Source of the DNA: Selenomonas ruminantium subsp. ruminantium ATCC 12561 | GTDB lineage: Bacteria > Bacillota > Negativicutes > Selenomonadales > Selenomonadaceae | Assembly: GCF_000424065.1 (NCBI RefSeq) | Contig: NZ_AUJE01000035.1 | Span: 1-39,910 of the forward strand | Direction: 5' to 3' | DNA: 39,910 nucleotides | Shown here: piece after piece, positions 20,155 through 37,000 of the stretch | How positions within the stretch are numbered: the first letter of the stretch is position 1 | How the letters are laid out: every line of letters starts with the position of its first letter | Position numbers and translations under genes: made by a program | Notes under the pieces: generated by a model | Seen by the model: the letters and a program-made list of their open reading frames with translations, nothing else | Told to the model about the DNA's origin: nothing | Database searches by the model: none

Positions 20155-21165
20155 ATGGCAGTAAAAGTTGCTATCAATGGTTTTGGCCGTATTGGCCGTC
20201 TCGCTTTCCGTCAGATGTTCGATGCAGAGGGTTATGAAGTAGTTGCAATCAACGACCTCACGAGCCCGAAAATGCTCGCACACCTGCTCAAGTATGATTC
20301 CACGCAGGGTAAGTACAAGTACGCTGACAAGGTAGAGGCTGGCGAAGACAGCATCACCGTTAACGGCAAAGAAATCAAAATCTACGCTGAAAAGGATGCA
20401 AAAGACATTCCTTGGGGCAAGCATGATGTAGACGTAGTTCTCGAATGCACTGGTTTCTACACTTCCAAAGAAAAGGCTTCTGCACATCTGGCTGCAGGCG
20501 CTAAGAAAGTTGTTATCTCCGCTCCGGCTGGTAACGACCTCCCGACTATCGTATACAACGTTAACCATGAAACCCTGACGAAGGAAGACAAGGTTATCTC
20601 CGCTGCATCCTGCACGACGAACTGCCTTGCTCCGATGGCTAAGGCTCTGAATGACCTGGCTCCGATTCAGTCCGGTATCATGTGCACGATCCACGCTTAC
20701 ACTGGCGACCAGATGACTCTGGATGGCCCGCAGCGTAAAGGCGACCTCCGTCGCAGCCGTGCAGCAGCTTGCAACATCGTTCCGAACTCCACGGGTGCTG
20801 CTAAAGCTATCGGCCTCGTAATTCCTGAACTGAAGGGCAAACTGATCGGTGCTGCACAGCGCGTTCCAACCCCGACTGGTTCCACGACGATCCTCAACGC
20901 TGTTGTTAAGGGCGACGTTACGGTTGAACAGATCAACGCTCAGATGAAGAAGGAAGCTACGGAATCCTTCGGTTACAACGAAGAAGAAATCGTATCCAGC
21001 GATATCGTTGGCATGCGTTTCGGTTCCCTGTTCGATGCTACGCAGACGATGGTTAACCCCGTTGAAGGTGGCACGCAGGTACAGGTTGTATCCTGGTACG
21101 ACAACGAAAACAGCTACACGAGCCAGATGGTTCGCACGATCAAATACTTCGCTGAACTCGGCTAA
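20155..21165 (+). CDS. gap: Glyceraldehyde-3-phosphate dehydrogenase, type I
   Basis: 336 residues, standard length. The NAD-binding N-terminus ([17 protein letters not shown]) is followed by the catalytic SCTTNCLAP with Cys153, then TVDGP-like [20 protein letters not shown], and the C-terminal [13 protein letters not shown]. It oxidatively phosphorylates glyceraldehyde-3-phosphate in glycolysis. Codon use is strongly biased toward a small set (GCT, GTT, CGT, AAG), as in highly expressed genes. GGGGGTAT lies 7-12 bases before the ATG. First gene of gap-pgk-tpiA-gpmI. Confidence 0.96.
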
Positions 21166-21181
21166 TTATTTGATGTAGCAA

Positions 21182-21303
21182 GGAAACGATGGCTAGACGA
21201 AAGCGTTAAGATGAGCGGTTGAGTTAGTCAGCGTTTCCGCAACTTCATACTACGAAGATCGATTGAGGTCCGGCCTGGCAAACTTGGGCCGGGCCTCAAT
21301 TTA
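21182..21303 (+). terminator. Two hairpins between gap and pgk
   Basis: The first is imperfect: GGAAACG (21182-21188) pairs with CGTTTCC (21232-21238). The second, ATTGAGGTCCGGCC (from 21262), pairs with GGCCGGGCCTCAAT (to 21300), followed by TTATTATTTTT. They may terminate part of the gap transcripts or protect mRNA ends. Confidence 0.6.
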
Positions 21304-21325
21304 TTATTTTTGGAGGTTTACATAA

Positions 21326-22519
21326 ATGGATAAGAAAACCCTGAAAGATATTGACGTTAAGGGCAAAAAAGTATTTGTCCGCGTTGACTATAACGTTCCG
21401 TTCGACGAAAATCAGAACATCACCAACGACACCCGTATGGTTCGCACGCTGCCGACCATCAACTACCTGCTGGACAACGGCGCTGCTGTAATCCTGGCTT
21501 GCCACATCGGCCGTCCGACCGAAGCTCGTGAGCCCCAGTTCTCCACGAAGCACCTCGTTGCACATCTGTCCGAACTCCTCGGCAAAGATGTAAAATGGGC
21601 TTCTGACTGCGTAGGCGAAGTTGCGGAAAAAGCTGCTGCTGATCTCCAGCCGGGCGAAGTTCTGCTTCTCGAAAACCTCCGTTATCACAAGGCTGAAAAG
21701 AAGAACGATCCCGAATTTGCAAAACAGCTGGCTTCTCTCGCTGACGTTGCTGTTGACGATGCTTTCGGTGTATCCCACCGCGGTCATGCTTCCAACGCTG
21801 GTATCGCTCAGTATGTGGAAGTTGTTGCCGGTTTCCTGATGGAAAAAGAAATCAACTACATCGGCAAGACGCTGGAAGCTCCGCAGCATCCGTTCGTTGC
21901 TATCATCGGCGGCGCTAAAGTTTCCGATAAGATCGGCGTAATCAGCAACATGATTGAAAAAGTCGACAAGATCATCATCGGCGGCGGCATGGCGCATACT
22001 TTTGATGCAGCTAAAGGCCTGCCCATCGGTGCATCTCTCTGCGAACCGGACAAGTACGACCTGGCTCGTGAACTCCTGAAGAAAGCAGAAGAAAAGGGCG
22101 TAGAAGTAATCCTGCCGGTTGACCTCGTTATCGCCGACAAATTCGCTGCTGATGCCAATACCCAGATGGTAGACGTGGACAAAGTTCCCGATGGCTGGCA
22201 GGCACTCGACTCTGGCGAAAAGACTTCTGCAAAATATGTGGAAGCCCTCAAAGGCGCTAAGACGGTTGTTTGGAACGGTCCTATGGGCGTGTTCGAATTC
22301 GACGCTTTCGCTAAAGGCACCCTGGCTGTGGCTGAAGCTGTTGCCAAAGCAACGGACGAAGGCGCTATCTCCATCGTTGGCGGTGGTGACTCCGTAGCAG
22401 CCCTCAAGAAGACCGGCCTCACCGACAAGATTTCCCACGTTTCCACCGGTGGCGGTGCAACGCTGGAATTCCTCGAAGGCAAAGAAATGCCGGGCGTAGC
22501 TGCAATCGCAGACAAATAA
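21326..22519 (+). CDS. pgk: Phosphoglycerate kinase
   Basis: 397 residues, standard. Signature segments: VFVRVDYNVPFDENQNITND at the N-terminus, the HIGRPTEAREPQFSTKHLV substrate-binding stretch, LLENLRYHKAE, AIIGGAKVSDKIGVI, and the nucleotide-binding KTVVWNGPMGVFEF and GGGDSVAAL in the C-terminal domain. It makes ATP from 1,3-bisphosphoglycerate. GGAGG precedes the ATG by 9 bases. Same codon bias as gap. Confidence 0.96.
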   Translation: MDKKTLKDIDVKGKKVFVRVDYNVPFDENQNITNDTRMVRTLPTINYLLDNGAAVILACHIGRPTEAREPQFSTKHLVAHLSELLGKDVKWASDCVGEVAEKAAADLQPGEVLLLENLRYHKAEKKNDPEFAKQLASLADVAVDDAFGVSHRGHASNAGIAQYVEVVAGFLMEKEINYIGKTLEAPQHPFVAIIGGAKVSDKIGVISNMIEKVDKIIIGGGMAHTFDAAKGLPIGASLCEPDKYDLARELLKKAEEKGVEVILPVDLVIADKFAADANTQMVDVDKVPDGWQALDSGEKTSAKYVEALKGAKTVVWNGPMGVFEFDAFAKGTLAVAEAVAKATDEGAISIVGGGDSVAALKKTGLTDKISHVSTGGGATLEFLEGKEMPGVAAIADK

Positions 22520-22528
22520 GTAAGTGGT

Positions 22529-22759
22529 GATACTTTTCTTTGGCGCAAAGAAAAGTATCCAAAAGAAAACGCGGACTGAAATCCCATCACGGGATTTACG
22601 TCCGCCTGCGCCCTTCCTTGGGCGCCGGGCAACGAGTACGCGTTATCTTTTCGAAATAAAAGTAAAAGCCTTCCCCTATGGGGGCGGCTTTGCCGCGGGT
22701 GTCCGGTGGACACCCCGTACGGGACCGTGTTAGCGGTGGATGAGGTTCTTACCGCTAAC
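22529..22759. repeat. Cluster of six hairpins between pgk and tpiA
   Basis: In order: a perfect 14-bp stem with 3-base loop (22529-22559, GATACTTTTCTTTG arm); GCGGAC/GTCCGC with GAAATCCC/GGGATTT (22571-22605); GCGCCC/GGGCGC (22608-22625); GCGGC/GCCGC (22684-22696); GGGTGTCC/GGACACCC (22697-22715); and GTTAGCGGT/ACCGCTAAC (22729-22759). No gene is present. It looks like a mosaic of intergenic repeats and would strongly structure the pgk-tpiA message. Confidence 0.65.
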
Positions 22760-22797
22760 TGGTCTTATAACAATAAAATTGCTGGGAGGCTATATAA

Positions 22798-23547
22798 ATG
22801 GCTAGAACTCCGATTATTGCCGGTAACTGGAAAATGAACAACACGATTAAGGAAGGCGTTGAGCTCGTAAAGGCTCTGGCTCCTCTCGTTAAGGACGCTA
22901 CGGTAGACGTTGTGGTTTGCCCGACGGCTACGGCTCTTTCCTCCGTTTGTGAAGCTGTAAAAGGCACCAACATCCACGTTGGCGCACAGAACGTACATTG
23001 GGAAGCAAAAGGTGCTTTCACGGGTGAAATCTCCACGGGCATGCTCAACGAAATCGGTGTAGATTACGTTGTCCTTGGTCATAGCGAACGCCGTGACTAC
23101 TTCGGTGAAACGGACGAAGGCGTAAACAAGCGCGCTCGTGCTGCTTTCGCTGCTGGTATCACGCCGATTATCTGCTGCGGTGAAAGCCTCGAAATCCGTG
23201 AAGCTGGCACTTACATCGACCATGTAGTTGCTCAGATTAACGCTGCTCTCGAAGGTTTTGCAGCAGACGAAGTTGCAAAACTCGTTATCGCTTACGAACC
23301 GATCTGGGCTATCGGCACGGGCAAGACGGCTACCTTTGACCAGGCTGAAGAAGTCTGCAAAGCTATCCGCGAAGCTGTTGCCAAGAAATTCGACCAGACG
23401 GCAGCTGACGCTATCCGCATCCAGTACGGCGGCAGCGTAAAACCGGCTACGATCAAAGACCTCATGCAGCAGCCGAACGTTGACGGTGCTCTCGTAGGCG
23501 GCGCTTCCCTGAAGGCTGAAGACTTCAGCGCTATCGTTAACTTCTAA
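22798..23547 (+). CDS. tpiA: Triosephosphate isomerase
   Basis: 249 residues, standard. It has GNWKMNNT with the catalytic Lys, [14 protein letters not shown] with the catalytic His, [14 protein letters not shown] with the catalytic Glu, and the phosphate-gripping IQYGGSVKP and GALVGGASL. It interconverts dihydroxyacetone phosphate and glyceraldehyde-3-phosphate. GGGAGG lies upstream. It is 32 bases ahead of gpmI, with no terminator between them. Confidence 0.96.
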
Positions 23548-23579
23548 TCTGTGTTTCTTAGAAGGAGCATATAAAAAAC

Positions 23580-25109
23580 ATGGCAACTCTTAAAAATGCA
23601 CCGGTGGCCCTCATCATCATGGATGGCTGTGGCCTCGGTGATAAAACCGACAAGAACAACGCTGTACAGGTAGCTAACACGCCCGTACTCGACGGACTCC
23701 TTGCCAACTACAAGACCAGCCAGCTGCAGGCTTCCGGCGAATTCGTCGGCCTGCCGGATGGTCAGATGGGCAACTCCGAAGTTGGTCATACCAACATCGG
23801 TGCCGGCCGCATCATCTATCAGCAGCTGACCCGCATCACCCGCGACATCAAGAACGGCGACTTCTTCAAGAACGAAGCTCTGCTGTCCATCGTCAACGGC
23901 GTGAAGGAAAAGAACGGCGCCCTGCACCTTATGGGCCTCGTTTCTCCGGGCGGCGTGCACAGCCATCAGGAGCACCTCTATGCGCTGCTCGAAATGGCCA
24001 AGAAAAACGACATCAAGGAAGTCTATGTACATGCCTTCCTCGATGGCCGTGATGTACCGCCCCAGAGCGCACAGCCTTTCCTCGAAGAACTCGAAGCAAA
24101 GTGCAAAGAAATCGGTGCTGGCTGCATTGCAACCGTCAGCGGCCGTTACTACGCTATGGACCGCGACAACCGTTGGGAACGCGTAGTCAAGGCTTATGAA
24201 GCCATCACCCATGCAGAAGGCGTTAGCGCTGATTCTGCAGTAGCCGGCCTCAAGGCAAGCTACGACAATGACGTAAACGACGAATTCGTTGTGCCGTTCG
24301 TAGTCAAAGGCTACGAAGGCATGAAGAATGGCGACGGCGCTATCTTCTTCAACTTCCGTCCGGACCGTGCCCGTCAGCTCACGCATTCCTTCGTGGATGA
24401 AAGCTTTGACGGTTTCGAACGCGACGAAGATTTGAAGATTCCGTTCGCTACCTTCTCCCAGTATGAAGACGGCATGAACGCTCTCGTAGCTTTCCCGCCG
24501 GAATCCATCAATAACACGCTGGGCGAAATCATCCAGAACAAGGGCATGACCCAGCTGCGCATCGCTGAAACCGAGAAGTACGCTCATGTAACGTTCTTCT
24601 TCAACGGCGGCGTGGAAGAACCCTACAAGGGTGAAGACCGCATCCTCGTTCCGTCCCCGAAGGTTGCAACCTACGACCTCCAGCCGGAAATGAGCGCTGT
24701 GGAAGTTACGGATAAAGTTGTCGAAGCCATCAAATCCGGCAAATACGACTTCATCATCCTCAACTATGCAAACTGCGACATGGTTGGTCATACCGGCGTA
24801 TTCCCAGCTGTAATCAAGGCTGTGGAAACGGTAGACAACTGTGTTGGCCGTTTCGTAGACGCCATCCGCGAAGTTGGCGGCGAGGTCTGCATCACCGCTG
24901 ACCACGGCAACGCCGACAAGATGATGGACTACGAAAACGACCAGCCCTTCACCAAACACACCACCAATCCGGTACCGTTCATCGTGGTATCCGACCGCGT
25001 CAAGTCCGTTAAGGACGGCGCCCTCTGCGATATCGCACCGACTCTTTTAACGCTGGCAGGCGTAGAGATTCCGGCCGAAATGACGGGCAAGAACCTGGTG
25101 GAACTCTAA
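23580..25109 (+). CDS. gpmI: 2,3-bisphosphoglycerate-independent phosphoglycerate mutase
   Basis: 509 residues, the normal length of the Mn-dependent enzyme. The alkaline-phosphatase-fold metal sites are visible: LIIMDGCGLGD, the catalytic Ser in GQMGNSEVGHTNIGAGR, NYANCDMVGHTGVF, and ITADHGNADKMMD. The inserted phosphatase-like domain has GLVSPGGVHSHQEHL, FLDGRDVPPQSA, TVSGRYYAMDRDNRWERV and FNFRPDRARQLTH. It converts 3- to 2-phosphoglycerate. AGAAGGAGC lies 14 bases before the ATG, a little long. Enolase would be the next step but is not here. Confidence 0.96.
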   Translation: MATLKNAPVALIIMDGCGLGDKTDKNNAVQVANTPVLDGLLANYKTSQLQASGEFVGLPDGQMGNSEVGHTNIGAGRIIYQQLTRITRDIKNGDFFKNEALLSIVNGVKEKNGALHLMGLVSPGGVHSHQEHLYALLEMAKKNDIKEVYVHAFLDGRDVPPQSAQPFLEELEAKCKEIGAGCIATVSGRYYAMDRDNRWERVVKAYEAITHAEGVSADSAVAGLKASYDNDVNDEFVVPFVVKGYEGMKNGDGAIFFNFRPDRARQLTHSFVDESFDGFERDEDLKIPFATFSQYEDGMNALVAFPPESINNTLGEIIQNKGMTQLRIAETEKYAHVTFFFNGGVEEPYKGEDRILVPSPKVATYDLQPEMSAVEVTDKVVEAIKSGKYDFIILNYANCDMVGHTGVFPAVIKAVETVDNCVGRFVDAIREVGGEVCITADHGNADKMMDYENDQPFTKHTTNPVPFIVVSDRVKSVKDGALCDIAPTLLTLAGVEIPAEMTGKNLVEL

Positions 25110-25111
25110 TC

Positions 25112-25240
25112 AGCAGGACAGAGGCAGCTCCCTTGAGCAAGGGCGCGTAAGCGCGGGATGCCGGTGGCATCCCCGGGGAGCAGGTTCATCGATGTTATCG
25201 GTGACCGCTCCATGCTAGCCCTCTTATGTTCTCCTGCTTT
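25112..25240 (+). terminator. Large nested hairpin after gpmI
   Basis: Outer arms AGCAGGA (25112-25118) and TCCTGCT (25232-25238), then TT. Inside are GCGCGTAAGCGC and GGGATGCCGGTGGCATCCCC stems and CTCCC/GGGGAG arms. It likely ends the glycolytic transcript and belongs with the other hairpin-rich spacers here. Confidence 0.55.
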
Positions 25241-25290
25241 GGGGCAAGACCTCTAGTGTTATATTTTAGAAAAAGAGAGGAATACGAACA

Positions 25291-25986
25291 ATGATTGCTT
25301 ATTCACAAAAAGTGGAAGACATGGCATGCGTAGCCCAGGAAGTACACCATGGTGCTGCTCCCATTCCTGAAGAAGGCAAATGGGTAAAATCCAAGAACGT
25401 ACAGGACATCAGCGGCCTGACGCACGGCATTGGCTGGTGCGCTCCGCAGCAGGGTGCCTGTAAACTGACCCTGAACGTTAAGGACGGCATCATCCAGGAA
25501 GCTCTCGTTGAAACCATCGGCTGCTCCGGTATGACGCATTCTGCTGCAATGGCTGCAGAAATCCTGCCGGGCCTCACGGTTCTCGAAGCCCTGAACACTG
25601 ACCTCGTGTGCGATGCCATCAACACCGCTATGCGCGAACTCTTCCTGCAGATTGCTTATGGCCGTTCCCAGACTGCATTCTCCGATGACGGTCTGCCCAT
25701 CGGCGCTGGCCTCGATGACCTTGGTAAAGGTCTGCGCAGCCAGACGGGTACGCTCTACAGCACGCTCAAGAAGGGTCCCCGTTACCTCGAACTTGCAGAA
25801 GGCTATGTAACGAAACTCGGTCTGGACAGCGAAAACCGCGTAATCGGTTACGAAGTTGTTCAGCTCGGCAAAGTTATGGAAGCTGTACGTGCCGGCAAAG
25901 ATGCTAACGAAGCCATCAAAGCCAACACCAGCACCAAAGGCCGTTTCGCTGACGCTGTTAAGACGATTGACCCGCGCGAAGAGTAA
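25291..25986 (+). CDS. NifU/IscU-like iron-sulfur scaffold family protein
   Basis: 231 residues. The middle resembles the IscU/NifU N-terminal scaffold: GWCAPQQGACKLTLNVKDG, then VETIGCSGMTHSAAMAAE, then LVCDAINTAMREL, supplying three spaced Cys positions like those that hold a transient Fe-S cluster. The C-terminal 90 residues (after SQTAFSDDGLPIGAG) have no match that I recognise. The partner gene 49 bases downstream encodes a GGGtGRT protein; these two families are, from memory, commonly adjacent. AAGAGAGG lies upstream of the ATG. A scaffold role is inferred. Confidence 0.75.
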   Translation: MIAYSQKVEDMACVAQEVHHGAAPIPEEGKWVKSKNVQDISGLTHGIGWCAPQQGACKLTLNVKDGIIQEALVETIGCSGMTHSAAMAAEILPGLTVLEALNTDLVCDAINTAMRELFLQIAYGRSQTAFSDDGLPIGAGLDDLGKGLRSQTGTLYSTLKKGPRYLELAEGYVTKLGLDSENRVIGYEVVQLGKVMEAVRAGKDANEAIKANTSTKGRFADAVKTIDPREE

Positions 25987-26035
25987 TAATCTACCTTCCG
26001 AAGTTAATGCAAGTGTATAGAGAGGAATGAATAGA

Positions 26036-27037
26036 ATGTCATTATTCGAAGGCTATGAACGCCGTATTGACCAGATTAATGAAGTTTGCAAAAAGTATGG
26101 TATTGCTTCCATCGAAGAAGCAAAAACCATCTGCGATGAAAAAGGCGTAAAAGCTTACGACATCGTAGGCGACCTGCAGCCGATTGCATTCGAAAATGCA
26201 AAATGGGCTTATACCCTCGGCGCTGCTATCGCAATCAAGAAGGGCTGCACGGCTGCTGCTGATGCTGCCAAAGCTATCGGCGAAGGCCTCCAGGCTTTCT
26301 GCGTACCGGGTTCCGTTGCTGACCATCGTAAAGTAGGTCTTGGCCATGGTAACCTCGGCGCTATGCTTCTGTCCGAAGAAGCTGGTTGCTTCGCATTCCT
26401 GGCTGGTCACGAATCGTTTGCCGCTGCTGAAGGTGCTATCGGTATCGCACAGACGGCTAACAAAGTTCGTAAGAACCCGCTGCGCGTTATCCTGAACGGC
26501 CTCGGCAAAGACGCTGCTCAGATCATCAGCCGCATCAACGGTTTCACCTTCGTAGAAACCGAATATGACTTCAAGGCTGACAAAGTAAACGTAGTGAAGG
26601 AAATCGCTTACAGCGATGGCCTCCGCTCCAAGGTTCGCTGCTACGGTGCTGAATCCGTACAGGAAGGCGTTGCCATCATGAAACTGGAGAACGTTGATAT
26701 CTCCATCACGGGTAACTCCACGAACCCGACCCGCTTCCAGCATCCGGTTGCAGGCTGCTACAAGAAAGACTGCATCGAAAACGGCAAGAAGTACTTCTCC
26801 GTTGCAAGCGGTGGCGGCACGGGCCGTACGCTCCATCCGGATAACATGGCAGCAGGTCCTGCTTCCTATGGTATGACTGACACCATGGGCCGTATGCATG
26901 GCGATGCCCAGTTCGCAGGTTCCTCCTCCGTACCGGCACACGTTGACATGATGGGCCTCATCGGCGCAGGCAACAACCCGATGGTTGGTATGACCGTAGC
27001 CGTAGCTGTAGCTGTACAGGAAGCTATGAGCAAATAA
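26036..27037 (+). CDS. GGGtGRT family protein
   Basis: 333 residues. It carries the motif SVASGGGTGRTLHPDN after which the family is named, along with VPGSVADHRKVGLGHGNLGA and GAGNNPMVGMTVAVAVAVQE. The function of the family is not established. The start chosen is ATG 26036, 10 bases behind GAGAGGA; the ATG at 26027 touches that ribosome-binding site. It is likely co-transcribed with the IscU-like gene, and a strong terminator follows. Codon use is as biased as in the glycolytic genes, which suggests high expression. Confidence 0.85.
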   Translation: MSLFEGYERRIDQINEVCKKYGIASIEEAKTICDEKGVKAYDIVGDLQPIAFENAKWAYTLGAAIAIKKGCTAAADAAKAIGEGLQAFCVPGSVADHRKVGLGHGNLGAMLLSEEAGCFAFLAGHESFAAAEGAIGIAQTANKVRKNPLRVILNGLGKDAAQIISRINGFTFVETEYDFKADKVNVVKEIAYSDGLRSKVRCYGAESVQEGVAIMKLENVDISITGNSTNPTRFQHPVAGCYKKDCIENGKKYFSVASGGGTGRTLHPDNMAAGPASYGMTDTMGRMHGDAQFAGSSSVPAHVDMMGLIGAGNNPMVGMTVAVAVAVQEAMSK

Positions 27038-27091: not shown

Positions 27092-27109
27092 GACGTATAC
27101 AACCGAATT

Positions 27110-27135
27110 TAATTTTTTCCCGATATTGTCGATAT
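27110..27135 (+). promoter_or_regulatory. Candidate sigma-28 promoter of the flagellin operon
   Basis: TAAT (27110-27113), 15-base spacer, TCGATAT (27129-27135), close to the flagellar consensus TAAA-N15-GCCGATAA. A second possible -10, CCCGATAT (27119-27126), overlaps it. It lies about 45 bases upstream of the first flagellin of the cluster. Confidence 0.55.
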
Positions 27136-27179: not shown

Positions 27180-28943
27180 ATGGCAATGGTCATAAAGAAC
27201 AATATGGCAGCCCAGATGGCCTTGGGAGAGCTGAACAAAAATAATAATAAATTGTCAAAATCTTTGCAGAAAGCAGCTTCCGGCATGAAGATCAATAGTG
27301 CCGCTGATGATGCCTCCGGCTATGCCATCAGTGAGCGCATGCAGGTGCAGCTGCGCAGCCTTAATGCGGACATTTCCAACACGCAAAACGCCACCAGCTT
27401 GCTGAAAACAGCAGAAGGAGCGGTATCTTCGACCGTCGATATACTCAAAGCCTTTAAAGAAAAGGCCATTAATGCCGCCAACGATACCAATACGGACGAT
27501 GACCGTGCCATCATGCAAAAGGAACTCAACCAATATATGTCTCAGATTGAAGATAACGCTGCGGTGACGTTCAATGGCAAACGGCTGTTGGATGGTACGC
27601 AGGGGCGGGGGATCGTCGCCAACCCTTGGGATGCCATGGCTTCTTTCATGAGCTATCTGGATGACGCAGATGACGCTACGGCACAGGAGGCGTTGGACGG
27701 TGCCATTAACTATGTTTCTGGCGGGAAATTTGACGATGAGGAAGCCCTGATTAATTGTTTTATTAACGATATAACGAAAAGTGGACTTGAAGCCTGCGGC
27801 ATCGATTTGAACAACGATGATACGGGGGCTATTACAGGCAAGGATGCGCGCAATGAAGTGGTAAAAACCGCTGAAAGCATTGTGCCGGAAAAAGATTATC
27901 CTTATGGCGGAAATCCAACAGGAGGAACCTCCCGCATTCGTGGCTTGACGGTGAAATGGCCTGCTTCCGTAAATTCGGATGTGGAAAGAGCAATATTGGG
28001 AGCCTTGGATCATCCCTGGCTGCAAAATTGCATGGATCTCATTGATGAATCCTATGCCTTGAATTTCTGGGAGAAAGGCGTTTCTATTCGTACTATGGAT
28101 GTGATACTGTCCAATAGTGGCCCAGGAAATTTAGCTTATATTACAAACAGTTCATCTGGAGGGGTTAAGAGTCTTAGTTTGACCATTAATATGTACTATT
28201 ATTCTTCTCTGGATTTAAAAGACTGGAATGGTAAAACTCCAAGCGTATCCGGTTATCTCGATCGCATAATTGCACATGAGATGACACATGCATTGATGAC
28301 ATCCAATATCAAAAATTTTAACAGTCTGCCTAAGTATATTACTGCAGGGGCAGCTGAATTGGTACATGGAATTGATGATTTTCGCAAAAAAAGCATTATC
28401 AGTCTGGCCAGTAATCCCGCTACATTGAAAAGTGTTTTACAAAATTCATCGTCAGCATCTGGCGACCAGGCTTACGCTGCCGGTTATATGATTCTTCGTT
28501 ATCTGGCAAAACAGTCTGCCGATGGGGAGCCGGAGAAAAACCTGACCTTCCATACAGGCACCAAGGCAAATCAAAATCTGCGGATAGGGCTTGCCGATAT
28601 GCGCTGCAAGGCATTGGGCCTTAGAAAATCAGATGGTACTACGGTAAGCGTTACTACGCAGGAACAGGCAAATTCAGCCATTACGGTGATTGACCGGGCC
28701 ATTGGCCGGGCACTCAAGCAGCAGACCCTTATCGGCGCGATGACGAGCCGCTTGGAATACACGGCGGCAAACCTGACTACCGCCCACGAAAACGTCACCT
28801 CTTCAGAGAGCGTCATACGCGATGCGGATATGGCCAAAGAAATGAGCAGCTATACCAAAGCAAATGTTTTGACCCAGGCGGCGCAATCGATGCTGGCACA
28901 GGCAAATCAGAACAGTTCTTCGGTACTTAGTTTATTGCAATAA
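27180..28943 (+). CDS. Flagellin with inserted metallopeptidase, permuted module order (flagellinolysin-like)
   Basis: 587 residues. Flagellin ends are intact: ND0/ND1 (1 to about 140, MAMVIKNNMAAQMALGELNK) and CD1/CD0 (about 460-587, ending RDADMAKEM to LSLLQ). Between them lies module A (about residues 147-262: FMSYLDD, INCFINDI, DTGAITGKD, VKWPA), then module B (about 265-453) with the HExxH peptidase motif AHEMTHALM, His366, Glu367, His370. The third gluzincin ligand, expected 18 residues on, is Ala389 (ITAGAAEL), so catalysis may be weakened or lost, unless Glu393 substitutes. Module order is the reverse of that in the next gene. Start ATG 27180 follows ACGGAGG; the frame is open upstream but without a site. 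Four cysteines lie within or next to the insert. Confidence 0.88.
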   Translation: MAMVIKNNMAAQMALGELNKNNNKLSKSLQKAASGMKINSAADDASGYAISERMQVQLRSLNADISNTQNATSLLKTAEGAVSSTVDILKAFKEKAINAANDTNTDDDRAIMQKELNQYMSQIEDNAAVTFNGKRLLDGTQGRGIVANPWDAMASFMSYLDDADDATAQEALDGAINYVSGGKFDDEEALINCFINDITKSGLEACGIDLNNDDTGAITGKDARNEVVKTAESIVPEKDYPYGGNPTGGTSRIRGLTVKWPASVNSDVERAILGALDHPWLQNCMDLIDESYALNFWEKGVSIRTMDVILSNSGPGNLAYITNSSSGGVKSLSLTINMYYYSSLDLKDWNGKTPSVSGYLDRIIAHEMTHALMTSNIKNFNSLPKYITAGAAELVHGIDDFRKKSIISLASNPATLKSVLQNSSSASGDQAYAAGYMILRYLAKQSADGEPEKNLTFHTGTKANQNLRIGLADMRCKALGLRKSDGTTVSVTTQEQANSAITVIDRAIGRALKQQTLIGAMTSRLEYTAANLTTAHENVTSSESVIRDADMAKEMSSYTKANVLTQAAQSMLAQANQNSSSVLSLLQ

Positions 28944-28964
28944 ATATACACGGAGGTAAATTCT

Positions 28965-30740
28965 ATGGCAATGGTCGTAAAGAATAACAGGGAAGCGTTA
29001 AATGCGCTGAATACACTGAATAAAAACGAAAGCGCCATGCGCAGCAGCTTGCAAAAAGTTTCCAGCGGCATGAAAATCAACAGTGCAGCTGACGATGCTT
29101 CCGGCTACTCGATTTCGGAAAAAATGCGGGTACGCATTCGCGGACTTGACCAGGCCACGGCCAACACACAAAATGCGACAAGCATGCTCAGAACGGCAGA
29201 GGGAGCTGTGCAGTCCACCATTGATATCATGAGAAACATCAAGGAAAAGGCGCTGAATTCTGCAAATGATACCAATACCGATGATGACCGGTCAATCATC
29301 CAAAAAGAAGTTGACCAGCTGGTGGAACAGATTGACGAGAACGCCAGTGCAACCTTCAACGGCAGACCGCTGTTCGATGGCTCTAACCGGCAGGCTGATA
29401 CTGTTGAGCAGCAGATTATCAAGGCACTTAACAGTGAATGGATTCAGAACAGTCTGGAGATGATAAAAGAAGCCTATGGCGTGGACTTTACGCAGGACAG
29501 CACAACCGTCAACAGAATGAAGGTAAATTTGAATTATAATCCCTCTTCACAGCAAAGTTCTGCTCTAGCCTGGGTAACGTCTACCCCGGTGGGAGGGAAG
29601 ACCGTTTCGTTGCAATTAGACATTAATATGACATTTTATAGCAATATGGATATGGAAAATGTCAATGGTGTTTACCCTGGTGGTGGTGCGGCAAATTACT
29701 TAGACCGTACAATTGCTCATGAAATGACCCATGCAGTAATGGCAGCAAATATTGAAAATTTTTCTTCACTACCATTATACATAAAGGAGGGAATGGCTGA
29801 ATTAATACACGGTGCAGATGATAATCTAAGTAATGAAATTAATAGTTTGGATGCAACGGAGTATACCAGTTTGTTTAATAATGGCGCTGGCACAAAAGCA
29901 CAATCACCATATGCCGGTGGTTTTGCATTATTTCGCTATATGGCATATCATTCGGGAGATAATGGCAAGGCTGCGCTTAGTCGTTTTATGAAAGTCCTGG
30001 AGGAGCAGGGGGCAGGTGCGATTGATGCTGCGGTATCTGGTGCTACGGCAGGGCGATTTGCTTCCTTGACGGATTTAACCAATTCATTTTTGAACGATTT
30101 TAACCGTTACTCGCCAATGAATATTAGTTTCTACAAAAAAGAATGCGGGATAGATATAGCCAATAAGGATATAGGTGGCATTATGGGATGGGATGCAGGC
30201 AACCGCGAATGGCGCACGACAGAAAGCACGGTTCCCGAAGGCGGTTCGACAAAATACTGGATTTACCCGGAAGATGCCGTAACCGTGATTGACGGCTTGG
30301 AAGTAGAATGGCCTGCCTTTGAGCATAAGATTGGCGGCTGGCAGTTCCATACAGGCACGAAATCCAACGAGTCCATTCATGTGGCGATTAATGATATTCA
30401 TGCGGAAGCTTTGGGCGTAAAGGCAAAAGATGGGACAAATATCAGCGTGGCCACATGGTCAGATGCGACAGCAGCAATCCGGCAAATCGATAAATCCTTA
30501 AACCGGGCCTTGAGCTATCAAACCAAGATTGGTGCGATTATCAGCCGCCTGGAATACACGGCAAGCAACCTTACGACCGCCAGCGAGAATACGCAAAGTT
30601 CCGAGTCTGTGATTCGGGATGCCGATATGGCAAAGGAAATGGCAACTTATACCAAGAATAATGTCTTGACGCAAAGCGCCCAAAGCATGCTGGCGCAGGC
30701 CAACCAGAATAGTTCATCGGTACTTAGCCTGTTGCAGTAA
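28965..30740 (+). CDS. Flagellin with inserted metallopeptidase (flagellinolysin-like), canonical zinc site
   Basis: 591 residues. The flagellin N-terminal domain (MAMVVKNNREALNALNTLNK to about 140) and C-terminal domain (about 462-591, ending LSLLQ) frame an insert. Module B comes first (about 147-335): VEQQIIKALNSEWIQNSLEM, then the peptidase core AHEMTHAVM with His252, Glu253, His256, and KEGMAEL with Glu275, giving HExxH-x18-E as in gluzincins. Module A follows (about 336-455: FMKVLEE, NSFLNDF, KDIGGIMGWD, VEWPA). Flagellinolysins are flagellins with a surface-exposed Zn peptidase along the filament. It starts 21 bases after the previous stop with a nearly identical ribosome-binding region, so the pair is a tandem duplication in one operon. 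The peptidase stretch is clearly more AT-rich than the flagellin ends. Confidence 0.9.
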   Translation: MAMVVKNNREALNALNTLNKNESAMRSSLQKVSSGMKINSAADDASGYSISEKMRVRIRGLDQATANTQNATSMLRTAEGAVQSTIDIMRNIKEKALNSANDTNTDDDRSIIQKEVDQLVEQIDENASATFNGRPLFDGSNRQADTVEQQIIKALNSEWIQNSLEMIKEAYGVDFTQDSTTVNRMKVNLNYNPSSQQSSALAWVTSTPVGGKTVSLQLDINMTFYSNMDMENVNGVYPGGGAANYLDRTIAHEMTHAVMAANIENFSSLPLYIKEGMAELIHGADDNLSNEINSLDATEYTSLFNNGAGTKAQSPYAGGFALFRYMAYHSGDNGKAALSRFMKVLEEQGAGAIDAAVSGATAGRFASLTDLTNSFLNDFNRYSPMNISFYKKECGIDIANKDIGGIMGWDAGNREWRTTESTVPEGGSTKYWIYPEDAVTVIDGLEVEWPAFEHKIGGWQFHTGTKSNESIHVAINDIHAEALGVKAKDGTNISVATWSDATAAIRQIDKSLNRALSYQTKIGAIISRLEYTASNLTTASENTQSSESVIRDADMAKEMATYTKNNVLTQSAQSMLAQANQNSSSVLSLLQ

Positions 30741-30771: not shown

Positions 30772-32361
30772 ATGGCAATGGTCGTGAAAAACAATATGTC
30801 GGCGGTTAATACACTGAATACGCTGAATAAAAACAGCAGTGATATGGCAAATTCACTAAAAAAAGTGTCTTCAGGGATGAGAGTAAACGGGGCAGGGGAT
30901 GATGCTTCTGCTTATAGCATATCTGAACGGATGCGGGTAAAAATCCGGAGCCTTGGTCAATGTGAGGCTAATACCGAGACAGGTAAAAGCATGCTCAAGA
31001 CGGCAGAGCGGGCGGTCAATGAGCAAGTGGATATCACCAAGCGGTTGAAAGAAAACGCCATCAAAGCGGCAAATGATACCTGTACGGACGAAGATCGGAA
31101 AATCATTCAGAAGGAAACAAACCATCTGCTGATGCAGATGAATGATATTTCCTACGAAACAAACTATAATGGCATTCAGCTCCTGAATGGTCGTACGATA
31201 ACAGAACCGTATGAACCATCGTTTATTCCCCGTGTAGGGACGAGTACAGCCAATAGAGGCGGAATACAGATTACCGAATCAGGTACAGATCCAAGCACAA
31301 AACATCCGCCGTTAGTAGGGAAAAAAGTACTAGCAGGGAATACCAGTCCGCTTAATTTTGATTATCCGGATTTGCCGCGTTCGTTGCACAATCAGGGATT
31401 TTCCAGCTTGTGTGAAGCGTGTTCTCAGTTTGCCAGTGTGTTATTTGATGCGAACACAGACGAAGTCCTTTATGCTAATGATAAAAAACCAATTGGGTCC
31501 ATGTCTGAAGTATTTGTGATTGGGATAAAAAACTGTCGGACGCCGGAGGATATTGGTGAAGCTATTTTGAACGGACTGGCCAAAGCGCGGGCTAAGTATA
31601 ACGTTCCGAAGGCTTCAAATGCCATTGATTCTCATCATGGTATTAAATTTTTCAAGTCTAGTACTAACCCAGCTAAGTATTCACTAGAAGCCAATGAGCA
31701 GACTCAGATTATCTACAATGGTGTTTCGGGCGATGTTGAATTTACAGGCGGGGTGCTGCCACATCAGAGTCTGATGATTCAGGGGGATACGAAGGCTTCG
31801 GCAGAAACACGCATAGAGCTTCCCAATACCACCTTGAATGCGCTGTTCCCCGGTTCACCCCTTGATAATGACTGGAAGACTGTCCCACGGCAGATGGACT
31901 ATCCCAAGGAATGGCCAAGCGACTTTGTAGTGGAAGGCAGTGCCGAATATGAGTATTATGACAAGAAATACGGCTGTAATGGCGATATAGAGCAAATTCG
32001 TAAGGAAAAATATTACGATGAAGTGTGGCCTTATCCGCGTAAAGGGGCATCGGCCACGGCCAGCTGTGTTACTACCATACAAAAGGCCACAAGATTTATA
32101 GACGATCTTGACCAAGCATTGAAGTATTTAGTGAATTGTGCCACTACCTTGGGTGCCCAATGCCAGCGTATGGAAGTGATGAATGAAAACCTTGTTACCA
32201 GTGATGAGAGCACCCAGGCATCGGAAAGCCTGATTCGTGATGCGGACATGGCCAAAGAAATGGCAAACTTTACCAAGCACAATGTTTTGACACAGGCGGC
32301 GCAGTCGGCCTTGTCTCAGGCCAATCAGGGCAGCAGCGGTGTGCTGAACCTTTTGCAGTGA
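30772..32361 (+). CDS. Cysteine-rich flagellin with two unusual insertions
   Basis: 529 residues with normal flagellin ends (MAMVVKNNMSAVNTLNTLNK; RDADMAKEM, ending LNLLQ). The hypervariable part (about residues 142-350) contains GFSSLCEACSQFASVLFDAN and a GIKNC segment. A second insertion of about 80 residues (NALFPGSPLDNDW through EVWPYPRKGAS) splits the region before the C-terminal helix. There are nine Cys in all (two in the N-terminal helical domain, three in the variable domain, four from KYGCNGD onward). Flagellins generally have none. There is no HExxH. It follows the peptidase flagellin by 31 bases and is closed by a terminator, so it is probably third in that operon. I do not recognise the inserts. 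Confidence 0.85.
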   Translation: MAMVVKNNMSAVNTLNTLNKNSSDMANSLKKVSSGMRVNGAGDDASAYSISERMRVKIRSLGQCEANTETGKSMLKTAERAVNEQVDITKRLKENAIKAANDTCTDEDRKIIQKETNHLLMQMNDISYETNYNGIQLLNGRTITEPYEPSFIPRVGTSTANRGGIQITESGTDPSTKHPPLVGKKVLAGNTSPLNFDYPDLPRSLHNQGFSSLCEACSQFASVLFDANTDEVLYANDKKPIGSMSEVFVIGIKNCRTPEDIGEAILNGLAKARAKYNVPKASNAIDSHHGIKFFKSSTNPAKYSLEANEQTQIIYNGVSGDVEFTGGVLPHQSLMIQGDTKASAETRIELPNTTLNALFPGSPLDNDWKTVPRQMDYPKEWPSDFVVEGSAEYEYYDKKYGCNGDIEQIRKEKYYDEVWPYPRKGASATASCVTTIQKATRFIDDLDQALKYLVNCATTLGAQCQRMEVMNENLVTSDESTQASESLIRDADMAKEMANFTKHNVLTQAAQSALSQANQGSSGVLNLLQ

Positions 32362-32493: not shown

Positions 32494-32580
32494 ATAACTA
32501 GAAGACTCGGCAGATCTGTATCGGAAATCGTGGATTTGCGTGTATATATAATGGGGTGAAGAACAAGGAGGTTGGCCGCT

Positions 32581-33906
32581 ATGGCTATGGTGGTAAAGAA
32601 TAACATGTCAGCGAAGAACACGCTGAATGAGTTGAACAGGAATGAAAAGGCGCGTACCAAGAATCAGAAGAACCTGTCTACAGGGATGAAGATTAATGGT
32701 GCCGATGATGATGCTTCAGGGTATGCCATCTCCGAAAAAATGCAGACGCAGATTCGCAGCCTGAGTCAGGATTTGGACAACACCCAAACCGCCATGAGTA
32801 TGTTGAAGGTGGCAGAAGGTGGTGTTCAGAGTACCGTGGACATTCTCAGTACCTTGAAAGAAAAAGTCATCAATGCGGCTAACGATACCAATACCGATGA
32901 AGACCGGGCCATCATCCAAAAGGAACTGGATCAGGCGGTCAGTCAGATTGATGAAAACGCCAATGTGATGTACAATGGCAAGATTGTGCTGGATGGTTCC
33001 CATAATAACGAGGTAAAACCGGCTACATATACGGTGCTGGCGAATGAGAACTTAGATCCGTCTACTACTAGTTCAGATTTGATAACGGATTTAAAAGATT
33101 CCTCTGGGAGAAGTTTGGGAATTCTTGAGGATAGTAAAATAGAGTTTTCGTATGTAAAGCAAGGGAAGACTTATACGACTACATTAGATCCAGTGGATAC
33201 GTGGAGCCTTACAGATATGTTTGCAGAAAGCTTAGATCCTGAAGGTTTTCCGCCTAGTAGCAATGATATGAATTTGGCTTTTGACAATGTTATCGGTGTT
33301 GACCGTACTGGTACTAATGTCATGACGGTCAATGGCAATTCAGCATTATTGTTTAGGGCGGCTGAGTCTGGGGTAGATGGTCAGATTGCGGGCTTGACGA
33401 TTAATGTGGTCAACAAGGATGGCACGGTAAATCAAACAGCTAATGCCGTATTAAATGATTTTCGTGAGGCTATCCGGGCAGAGAATGAATCGCCGGATAA
33501 TGCGCTGACGTTCCAAATTGGGACGAAAGCCAATCAGTCGGTAAAAATAGGTTTTTCGGATATGCGCGGTACCGCTTTAGGACTGCGAACCGACGATGGT
33601 ACAACGCTTTCGATTTCCACGCAGGAAAAGGCGAATGCCGCTATCAATGTATTGGAATTGGCTATTGGCAAGGCGTTGGCTGTACAGACGAATATTGGTT
33701 CGGTAGAGAATCGTATGAATTTCACTGCTGCTAACATAACGACTGCAAGTGAAAACACGCAGGCTACAGAATCGATTATCCGTGATGCGGATATGGCCAA
33801 AGAAATGACAGCTTATACCAAAAATAACGTATTGGTGCAAGCATCTCAGTCCATGTTGGCACAAGCCAATCAGAGTAGTTCGTCGGTACTCAGTTTGTTA
33901 CAGTAA
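32581..33906 (+). CDS. Flagellin with a non-catalytic variable domain
   Basis: 441 residues. Conserved ends (MAMVVKNNMSAKNTLNELNR; TESIIRDADMAKEM, ending LSLLQ) frame a variable domain of about 160 residues (from HNNEVKPATYTVLANE to NALTFQIGTKANQ), rich in Asp, Ser and Thr with a KTYTTTLDPVDTWSLTDMF stretch, and without Cys or HExxH. It is the most ordinary filament subunit of the five flagellins here and has its own sigma-28 promoter and terminator, so it could be the major flagellin. ATG 32581 follows AAGGAGG by 9 bases; a TTG nine bases earlier is too close to that site. Confidence 0.92.
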   Translation: MAMVVKNNMSAKNTLNELNRNEKARTKNQKNLSTGMKINGADDDASGYAISEKMQTQIRSLSQDLDNTQTAMSMLKVAEGGVQSTVDILSTLKEKVINAANDTNTDEDRAIIQKELDQAVSQIDENANVMYNGKIVLDGSHNNEVKPATYTVLANENLDPSTTSSDLITDLKDSSGRSLGILEDSKIEFSYVKQGKTYTTTLDPVDTWSLTDMFAESLDPEGFPPSSNDMNLAFDNVIGVDRTGTNVMTVNGNSALLFRAAESGVDGQIAGLTINVVNKDGTVNQTANAVLNDFREAIRAENESPDNALTFQIGTKANQSVKIGFSDMRGTALGLRTDDGTTLSISTQEKANAAINVLELAIGKALAVQTNIGSVENRMNFTAANITTASENTQATESIIRDADMAKEMTAYTKNNVLVQASQSMLAQANQSSSSVLSLLQ

Positions 33907-33967: not shown

Positions 33968-34098
33968 GGGTAGATGGAATATTACAGATTTTTGAAAATT
34001 TTATTTTAAGAGATACCATCATGATAAGAGAGTTTCATGGTTAGATATAGATGTAAAGAAAGATAGAATAAGCGCAGTGTTTAATGGGGTGTTGTAAA

Positions 34099-37000
34099 AT
34101 GCGCAGGGATAGTAGACATAAACAAATTGCCTTACAAGTCAGTATTGCGCTGACGGCAGGCATGTTCAGTATTGTACCGGTTGCCTTGGGGGCACCGGTG
34201 GGCGGCAGTTCAGCGACTGCCAACATCAGCTATAGTGATGTAAAAAATGGCAATGTTGTGATTGGTCAGGATACCAATATCAGCAGCACGACAACTAACA
34301 ATGTGATTGACTGGCATGATTTTTCCGTTGCTAAGGATGAAAAAGTTGTTTTTGATGGTGGCAGCGGTAGCAGCATCAAAAACAACTATATGAATGTGGT
34401 CACTGGTGCGAATACATCGAATATAAATGGTAAAATCGAAGGCGGTAATGAGGTTTATCTTGTAAATCCCAATGGGGTTATCTTTGGTAAAGATGCCAGT
34501 GTAGATGTAGGGAGTCTCTATGTATCGACCAGAGGGGATGCAGTTGTCAAAAACGCCACGACTAATGCTGTGGATTTTAATGCGACTAAAGCGAATTTAA
34601 TCACGGCAGCTACTTCGGTCAATGGTGCGGCCATGGACGTGGTCAATATGGGAAAAATATCTGCGGATAAAGTGGTCTTGGAGGGCGAGAATATCCGCTT
34701 GCTTAACTCTGCAGATATTACAGCAGCCAATGGCGTTACCCTGCGGGCGGATGATGGATATATCCATGTGGGGAATACCGGCACCGTTGCCACGGGGTAT
34801 ACATCTGAAAAAATGACCAGCGCAGGTTCTGTTGCGCCTGTCGAAAACTTTACTCTTGTGGATAATACGAACTGGAGTACAACATTGGGGACAGGGGGGG
34901 CGGTCAGCGGTAATTATATGCTGGCTGAAGAGATTGATGCTAGTGCTATTGCGAACTTTAATACGGTATCATCCTTTACCGGAAAAATTGATGGAAATTT
35001 TTATGCAGTAAAAAATGTTAATGGCAACAAAGGGTTATTTGCATCGACAAATAATGCTGAACTAAGAAATATTGGTATTAAAAATTCTACATTTAAATCA
35101 ACTGCAGTTATAGGTGCATTGATTACCAACGCTACAGATACTGAGCTGTATAATGTTTTCAATGAAAACACCAAGATACAGGCTGGCAATAATTCTGGTG
35201 CCTTGGTGGGTACAGCAAGTGGCGTAAAAATAGAATCAAGTTACAATACAGGTAACGTATATAACAACAAAGGTACATCTGTAATGGGAGCTGGTTTTGT
35301 AGGCGTGTTTTCTAGTGGCACGAATACGGTGACCAATAGTTATAGTACAGGGACTACTAATAATAGTGCATTTGCGACAAGCAATACTAGTGCAAGTGTG
35401 ACCTATGAAAATGTATATGGAAACGGAAAAAAATTTCATGGAAATGCTGCTGGAACCGTTGTAATAAAAAATTCTGTTAGCGTGGGAAATAATCAATATC
35501 GCTTGGCAAACAGCAGTGGAACTGAAAAAGATGTATTGAAATCCAATATAGATTTAACGGTACTTTCCTCGGTTGCCCAAGGTGGGGATTATCCATCGTG
35601 GTCGAATTCGACGATTACAGATACAGGAGGCTTATCCTATAGCGGCACGAAACTCATTCGTCCCGCCTGGCGTATCTATGAGGGAAAGGCTGCCCCTGTG
35701 CTGACCGCTTTCCAGCAGGGCATTAAAAATGTCGATTATCATTATGAATATTTTGATGCCAGCAATGCAATTGATACCAATGCGGCAAAATACAACAATG
35801 GTGCCAATAAAGGACAGGATATGACACCCTATACCTATGGCACCACGTTGGATGGTTTGGTCTACAATGGCGACACGCTGAAAATCGTGGACAGCAGTGG
35901 CAACGCAGCTTCGTCCAATAGCACTACCAAGGCAATCAATGATATCAGCACGGTGTTTCAGACTACACCTAATGGCGCTGAGATGATTGATAAAAATCAT
36001 GTATTCTACAATGCGGCCGGACAGCGGGATGCTACCTATACGCCGCCAGCCACGGGAAACACCACAGGCACGCAGAACAAGCTGGCTTTTGTTTGGTCTG
36101 ATCAAAAAGGGTATGATCTGGTGGGGAGTAATATCTCCATTGCGCCGCGTCAGGTGATACTGACCAATAACTTAGGTACGCAGACGATTGTCAAGGAATA
36201 TGATGGTTCGGATGATGCGGTGAATTTGGTGCCTAACCTGTTCAAAGGAAACAGCGCGACATCTACCGGCATACTGGCTGTCGATAGTGGTTCGGTAAAT
36301 GTGGGATGGGCTCAAAATACAACTCCTACGGCTATTTTTGTCAATCAGGGGGGAACGACGGGAAACGCGGACGTCAGCGCAAATAAGCAGGTATTGATCA
36401 ATGGTACGATTGCGCTCACTACCCCTAGCGGTGCGGCTTATACAGGTAGCAATTATGTCATCGTGGATGGCAATGGTAATCCGGCTTCCAGTGTACAGTT
36501 GAATACGGCAGTAAATGCGGCAATCTATCAACGTCAGCTGCAGGTATCCTTTAACAGCACACCGATTACCAAGACCTATGACAAGGATGAATTTGTCAAA
36601 GACAGTAACGGCAATTTGCGGTCTTTTGGGCAAAGCGATTTTACCCTGAATACGGCCAATGTGGTGTCTGGGGATAATGTGGCTTTAACCGTGGCAACTA
36701 CGAATCAAGCCACTTATGTGGACAAAGCTACGGGACAAGTGCAGAAAAATGTAGGAACTCATGATGTAGCTGTGGGCGGCGTAACATTAACCGGTACTGC
36801 GGCGAAGAATTATACTTTGGTAGATGCCAGTGGCAATCCGGTTTATAGCGAACAGGGCATTGTTACCGGCTTTAAGCAGCAGGGGAATCCCATTGGTCTT
36901 GGCGGTGGAACATTCTATACCACGGGCGATATTACCCTGCGTTCTTTGGGCGATACCGGTTATAAGTGGTTTAAGAATGCGCCTGGCGGCACGCCAAAGT

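Follow-up and report, generated by a model that had tools for sequence, protein, structure and literature searches.

The window analysed here, which comprises 39,910 nucleotides of the genome of Selenomonas ruminantium subsp. ruminantium ATCC 12561 (contig NZ_AUJE01000035.1, positions 1 to 39,910), contains four tandem flagellin genes on the plus strand, F1 to F4, all of which encode Flagellin_N and Flagellin_C ends according to Pfam. F1 and F2, separated by 21 bases, additionally carry an insert related to the peptidase domain of flagellinolysin between these ends. The insert consists of two modules, A and B, which follow each other in opposite order in the two genes (Table 1).

Table 1. Flagellin genes of the window and the parts of the F1 and F2 inserts.
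Feature	Position	Strand	Evidence
F1: flagellin of 587 amino acids, peptidase insert permuted (N-A-B-C)	27180..28943	+	
F1 Flagellin_N domain	27180..27599	+	PF00669, 2e-30
F1 module A: C-terminal gluzincin helices, loop, hairpin; first in insert	27633..27965	+	
F1 hairpin of module A (model residues 110-119), abuts B	27927..27956	+	alignment ranges
F1 module B: backing helix, sheet, HEXXH helix, glutamate helix	about 27981..28523	+	
F1 HEMTH zinc-binding motif	28275..28289	+	
F1 codon gca, Ala389 at the position of the third zinc-ligand Glu	28344..28346	+	Glu in 117 other aligned rows
F1 flagellin C-terminal domain	28548..28943	+	PF00700, 4.4e-21
F2: flagellinolysin, usual order N-B-A-C, 591 amino acids	28965..30740	+	NF033876, 297.8 bits, one stretch
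F2 module B	29394..29969	+	
F2 HEMTH motif	29718..29732	+	
F2 third zinc-ligand Glu, codon gag	29787..29789	+	
F2 module A	29973..30317	+	
F2 hairpin of module A (model residues 299-308), ends insert	30279..30308	+	
F3: flagellin, other insert of ~280 amino acids, no convincing Pfam match	30772..32361	+	
F4: flagellin, shorter variable region	about 32578..33906	+	

An earlier note on this DNA had claimed that F1 and F2 carry the same modules in opposite order within the same flagellin ends, and comparison of the two proteins by blastp bears this out. The flagellin ends are collinear, with residues 1-140 matching each other at 64% identity and residues 457-587 of F1 matching 461-591 of F2 at 66%. 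The inserts match crosswise: residues 152-262 of F1 align with 337-451 of F2 (module A, 34% identity, E 2e-15) and residues 209-448 of F1 with 102-332 of F2 (module B, 37% identity, E 2e-41), and the segment that is B in both genes begins near residue 268 of F1 and 148 of F2. The module boundaries proposed in the note agree with these coordinates. Neither the A-A score of 150 nor the B-B score of 352 was reached by any of 1000 shuffled sequences, and the wrong pairings scored at chance level (A of F1 with B of F2, 33, with 215 of 1000 shuffles as high; B of F1 with A of F2, 35, with 89 of 1000). The flagellinolysin profile NF033876 covers F2 in one collinear stretch (profile positions 1-383 of 384 on residues 112-521), making F2 a flagellinolysin by the curated cut-off (297.8 versus 205 bits). 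On F1 the profile is not collinear, and the total of 219.6 bits, which also exceeds the cut-off of 205, is collected from four stretches that are out of order, with profile positions 221-321 followed by 39-218 and then by 324-382. Both inserts missed the gathering score of 26 for the Pfam M9 family (PF01752), with 15.1 bits for F1 and 12.6 bits for the F2 insert. The inserts of F1 and F2 are a circular permutant pair of one catalytic domain inside flagellin.

Structure prediction, which the earlier note had suggested as a check, led to the same result. The model of the F1 insert (predicted local distance difference test, pLDDT, 93.4; predicted template modelling score, pTM, 0.92) contains three helices, a loop, a hairpin, a long helix and three strands, followed by the HEXXH helix, the glutamate helix, a pair of short helices and a final helix. 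The model of the F2 insert (pLDDT 86.3, pTM 0.88) begins at the long helix and ends with helices, loop and hairpin, with one or two extra short helices in A. After rotation, the order of structural elements is identical in the two predicted models. The best structural match of F2 was the M30 peptidase lugdulysin (7bb8; Z 12.6, root-mean-square deviation (rmsd) 3.8, 224 aligned residues, model residues 5-260), a likeness of fold, followed by two structures of collagenase G (7zbv, with Z 11.6 and rmsd 4.5 over 232 residues, model residues 5-301; 7z5u, with Z 11.4). Lugdulysin is not known to be part of a flagellin. Since these alignments span the A helices of F2, the A helices occupy the place after B in M30 and M9 peptidases. 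Against M9 collagenase peptidase domains (7z5u, 4ar1, 4ar8), F2 aligns through A with Z about 11, whereas F1 aligns over hairpin and B with Z about 8.5; the F1 alignments to collagenases are confined to model residues 105-309 (9l5o, Z 8.8, rmsd 4.0, 180 residues; 7z5u, Z 8.7). Foldseek searches of the PDB at E<=0.001 returned one match for F2 and none for F1. A sequence profile search of solved structures gave no peptidase match for either profile; five structures matched one of the profiles, with two TAL effectors at the top, but were discarded as spurious sums of many weak repeat matches, and the other profile matched none.

The zinc site distinguishes the two inserts further, a point absent from the earlier note. 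The ligands of the HEXXH motif and the distal Glu are complete in F2, and the set of H, E, H and distal E is kept in 117 of the 118 aligned rows. F1 is the sole exception: its insert is flanked by flagellin N and C domains, but Ala389 (gca) stands at the position of the third zinc-ligand Glu, where its relatives in genomes G146, G154, G155 and G006 have gaa. F1 thus differs from known flagellinolysins both in the order of the domain parts and in lacking the third zinc ligand. According to the flagellinolysin study of 2017, this Glu is conserved in the flagellins identified there, and exchange of the catalytic Glu abolishes activity (PMC5595980). As judged from its sequence, F1 is probably a weak or inactive peptidase. 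A comparison of F1 with three near A-B genes, region by region (N, A, B, C), gave ratios of non-synonymous to synonymous substitution rates (dN/dS) of 0.03-0.15; synonymous sites were close to saturation. These values indicate that the F1 gene is maintained by purifying selection.

The A-B order turned out to be widespread, and A-B flagellins were found in Selenomonas, Anaerovibrio, Schwartzia and Quinella-like bacteria when other Negativicutes were searched as the earlier note had proposed. When 189 genomes of the family were searched with NF033876, many open frames of ~595 amino acids matched in the B part alone, and forty stretches fetched from this list, chosen for such frames or for longer ones, contained N-A-B-C flagellins in several genera as well as A-B proteins without flagellin ends. 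A contig scan with an A-B alignment gave 416 confirmed stretches, of which the best 80 amount to 79 distinct loci. These loci belong to Selenomonas, Anaerovibrio, Schwartzia, Quinella and other Selenomonadaceae or Selenomonadales, and their sole B-A open reading frame (ORF) is a truncated one in L076. Isolates with the A-B form include Anaerovibrio lipolyticus DSM 3074 and Schwartzia succinivorans DSM 10502. When the search with the A-B alignment was extended to the class, 149 of 380 genomes matched at E<=0.001, a count that takes in partly matching B-A genes. Among 137 distinct inserts with both modules, 91 read A-B (34 in flagellins, 57 not) and 46 read B-A (35 in flagellins, 11 not); as this collection was partly gathered with an A-B query in one scan and one genome search, the counts are not an unbiased frequency. 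A scan of viral contigs produced 17 pattern matches, none of which was confirmed.

The suggestion of the earlier note that B-A is the usual flagellinolysin order holds. It is the order of the NF033876 model, of 11 of the 12 matching genomes outside the family of the window (the twelfth, G237, has A-B) and of both distant Firmicutes loci (L203, L204). It is also the order of helices in gluzincin structures; B-A is therefore how the helices of this fold are generally ordered, and A-B is the permuted form.

Several A-B proteins without flagellin ends belong to exoproteins of the RTX type, which share the A-B order and the complete zinc site with the A-B class and possess RTX calcium-binding repeats in place of flagellin ends. 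When seven of the A-B proteins without flagellin ends were compared with Pfam, RTX repeats were found in L074, L072, L185 and L138, a match below the cut-off in L061 and none in L060 and L067. The eleven B-A proteins without clear flagellin ends (L188-L198) come from other families of the class and have 435-585 amino acids. All four of those tested passed the NF033876 cut-off; of three compared with Pfam, L189 passed the cut-off of Flagellin_N (34.8 versus 26.6 bits) while L188 and L197 stayed below it, and six of the eleven terminate at or near VLQLL; they are possibly degenerate flagellins.

In a Quinella-like genus (g11, e.g. G066 and G065; the label rests on one named Quinella locus, L110, which groups with g11 flagellin inserts), many A-B peptidase candidates occur per genome, many of them in long open frames, with up to 55 first-look NF033876 candidates in G066. 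In G159, an in-frame TAA between modules A and B (L037, 4647-4649) splits an A-B flagellin gene, and the same gene is present in Selenomonas sp. AE3005 (L078); the split gene looks like a second damaged A-B copy.

Phylogenetic trees were calculated for inserts and for flagellin ends. For the inserts, 172 rows were reduced to 118 by dropping ORFs with short modules, the window copies L001-L004 and rows that exceed 88% identity to a retained row with the same module order. A careful tree was based on 73 of these, leaving out L204, L186, L030 and eight other names and thinning the A-B exoproteins to 16, and the insert trees were rooted with B-A outgroup rows. In the quick (118 rows) and the careful tree alike, most A-B and B-A flagellin inserts separate and several groups are well supported, while the deep branches have weak support. 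A single A-B clade was not rejected by approximately unbiased (AU) tests, either against the free quick tree with 87 of the 118 rows (p-AU 0.666, log-likelihood 11.07 above the free tree) or against the careful tree (p-AU 0.327, log-likelihood 7.94 lower). A single origin of A-B from a B-A ancestor would be the simplest reading. In a quick tree of flagellin ends (102 of 171 rows, near copies removed), five changes are needed for A-B, at least two of which are forced by well-supported branches, indicating that A-B inserts reside on more than one flagellin backbone; they may have arrived there by transfer of the insert or by conversion of the ends.

The finding is real, wider than first described and not local: the A-B insert is the flagellinolysin domain in a conserved, circularly permuted form. 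Like flagellinolysin (FlaMP; NF033876; Eckhard 2017, PMC5595980; Hylemonella, PMC7643111), in which a gluzincin-type peptidase is likewise flanked by flagellin N and C domains, F1 and F2 would display this domain on the filament. No description of a permuted flagellinolysin domain was found in the literature searched, which leaves subscription journals mostly outside, in line with the statement of the earlier note that a permuted catalytic domain in a filament subunit is undescribed. Words beginning with 'permut' are absent from the main texts of both flagellinolysin papers (PMC5595980; PMC7643111), the Quinella genome paper has no word beginning with 'permut', 'peptidase' or 'protease', and PMC3650047 has the phrase circular permutation in its reference list only. 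The flagellinolysin study further describes a calcium site near the active site and leaves the source of the inserts of proteolytic flagellins undetermined (PMC5595980). The A-B exoproteins are a candidate source of inserts for some of these flagellins. A profile built on the usual order splits or underrates the A-B class. Natural circular permutants of enzymes are known. To our knowledge, it is unusual for a gene array to contain the permuted and the unpermuted form of one catalytic domain next to each other, and because both forms reside on the same scaffold, the two registers lend themselves to direct comparison in stability, activity and assembly.

We consider it probable, with good confidence, that F1 and F2 present one kind of gluzincin-type metallopeptidase domain opened at two different points of the chain, that A-B derives from a B-A ancestor and that F1 is impaired. 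A domain inserted into flagellin would need its ends close together in space, and with the ends tied in this way, the same fold could open at a different loop on its surface. The chain of F2 would enter at the backing helix and leave after the last hairpin, whereas that of F1 would enter at the C-terminal helices, pass via the hairpin to the backing helix and leave after the last helix of B. The textbook route to a circular permutant is a duplication, here B-A-B-A, followed by loss of the outer halves. The A-B form probably arose in or near the Selenomonadaceae, most simply once and possibly by this route, and came to reside on several flagellin backbones and in RTX-type exoproteins. At the threshold used, none of the 210 ORFs that contain both modules showed a repeated one (A-B-A or B-A-B), as an intermediate would. 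Flagellin ends place an insert on the outer face of the filament, as is reported for flagellinolysin of Clostridium haemolyticum (PMC5595980), and F2 would act as a surface peptidase. F1 would fold likewise and copolymerise with a damaged metal site, and could serve in peptide binding, as surface coat or filling, as decoy, or in dilution of active sites.

The position of the hairpin may add a further opening of the ring. In collagenase G, the alignment starts at residue 413 with F1, where model residue 107 lies near the hairpin, and at residue 428 with F2, where model residue 5 lies in the long helix, and similar offsets between F1 and F2 were observed for collagenase T (355 and 370), collagenase H (345 and 360) and lugdulysin 7bb8 (123 and 138). 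As far as these alignment ranges tell, a hairpin seems to precede B in collagenases and M30 lugdulysin, as it does in F1, whereas it ends the insert in F2. If so, the ordinary flagellinolysin would itself be permuted by one hairpin, and F1 would represent a second reopening of the ring. The resulting picture has three registers of one gluzincin fold, namely hairpin-B-A, represented by collagenases and M30 peptidases, B-A-hairpin, represented by ordinary flagellinolysin, and A-hairpin-B, represented by the form found in Selenomonadaceae, with reopening brought about by insertion into flagellin, movement of the domain between filament and RTX proteins, and F1 as a filament pseudoenzyme beside an active copy. 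We regard this extended scenario as possible, albeit slightly short of probable.

Several observations count against a common fold opened at two points, an impaired F1 and a B-A ancestor. The likeness of the folds was judged by comparing the order of elements across two separate predicted models, and the F2 model was built on alignment rows assembled module by module; several sets of rows were tried, and the one in register was picked by register before any F2 model existed. Some alignments of F1 to proteins other than collagenases start inside the A helices with Z about 8, reaching into A in 8p0i (Z 8.1, model residues 24-315), lugdulysin 7bb9 (Z 8.0, 45-314), 8cgw and 3o0y, and the Z values of F1 lie within the range attainable by unrelated models, so that its fold assignment leans equally on the homology of its modules to those of F2. 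With regard to impairment, F1 departs from only four columns that are conserved in 90% of rows (median of all rows, three); besides Ala389, it departs from columns 90% conserved among A-B rows by two V to I exchanges and one A to S exchange, all mild. Because dN between module B of F1 and three relatives looks higher (0.13-0.17, compared with 0.07 and 0.10 for two pairs among the relatives), relaxed evolution of this module was considered, but was rejected, as relative-rate tests were not significant (17 versus 12 changes, chi2 0.86; 17 versus 11, 1.29; 15 versus 9, 1.5). With so few departures and no significant change of rate, a loss of function would be recent or partial. A recent and specific loss of catalysis with retention of the subunit seems likeliest, and weak zinc binding with some remaining activity is an admissible alternative. 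Finally, G237 belongs to another family and reads A-B, so the A-B form is not confined to one family, and the free careful tree nests the Selenomonadaceae B-A flagellins inside A-B rows with two order changes, which would require a return to B-A or several permutations.

This nesting also speaks for the best surviving alternative, in which A-B is older among the Selenomonadaceae copies and their B-A flagellins arose by a second permutation back, as does the hairpin before B that A-B appears to share with collagenases. We nevertheless consider this history unlikely, because the outgroup rows are all B-A, the A helices follow B in M9 and M30 peptidases and one A-B clade was not rejected. Quite improbable is the view that A and B are independent, freely shuffled domains. 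ORFs with a single module do occur (L187 with A and the flagellin C domain, L059 with B and the flagellin C domain), and L068 contains an overlapping A frame and B frame. The ORF of L187, however, reaches the end of the locus and that of L059 starts at base 3 of its contig, indicating that both are cut, and neither module is repeated in any ORF with both. Moreover, A supplies helices located after B in M30 and M9 peptidases and, according to the alignment ranges, a hairpin located before B there, and hence completes the fold of B.

Even less credible is a recent rearrangement of F2 or its copy into F1 within this genome, the local reading of the earlier note's suggestion that F1 would be the rearranged copy. 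The two genes are adjacent with similar flagellin ends (64-66% identity), A-B and B-A genes are adjacent in G146 as well, and in G155 both forms lie on one contig, separated by a flagellin that is read in two frames. Yet the two A-B inserts nearest to that of F1 share 78% and 82% identity with it, compared with 34-37% for F2, and F1 and F2 fall into different groups of the flagellin-end tree. Among 154 A-B loci, in stretches that are short, a B-A ORF was found alongside only in the window copies (L001/L004), in L036 and in L039, which is the same contig as L076. The distribution of A-B inserts over many genomes of several genera and in RTX-type exoproteins contradicts a local event, and in this local sense the suggestion of the earlier note is not supported. 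Although the genome of the window consists of 67 contigs and a misassembly is conceivable in principle, an assembly artefact has practically no probability, as the same order recurs in separately assembled isolates and metagenome bins, where frames are open and motifs intact with few exceptions.

Regarding the remainder of the array, the F3 backbone groups with a gene of G146 (L036, 1669-3453) in the flagellin-end tree (Shimodaira-Hasegawa-like approximate likelihood ratio test (SH-aLRT), 100), and L036 has the same gene order as the window on one strand, with an A-B, a B-A, an F3-like and a plain flagellin gene. Matches to sigma-28-like sites (22 with <=3 mismatches, compared with 10.2 expected) include one at 27109-27134 before F1 and are too weak to use, and scans for sigma-70 promoters and terminators remained near chance level. 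Upstream of the array (20155-27037) are the glycolysis genes for GAPDH, PGK, TIM and iPGM, together with a gene with a NifU_N match below the cut-off and a GGGtGRT gene. On the other side, the beginning of a very large exported-looking protein (34084-39909, 1942 amino acids, open at the end of the window) has a YDG repeat match just under the cut-off.

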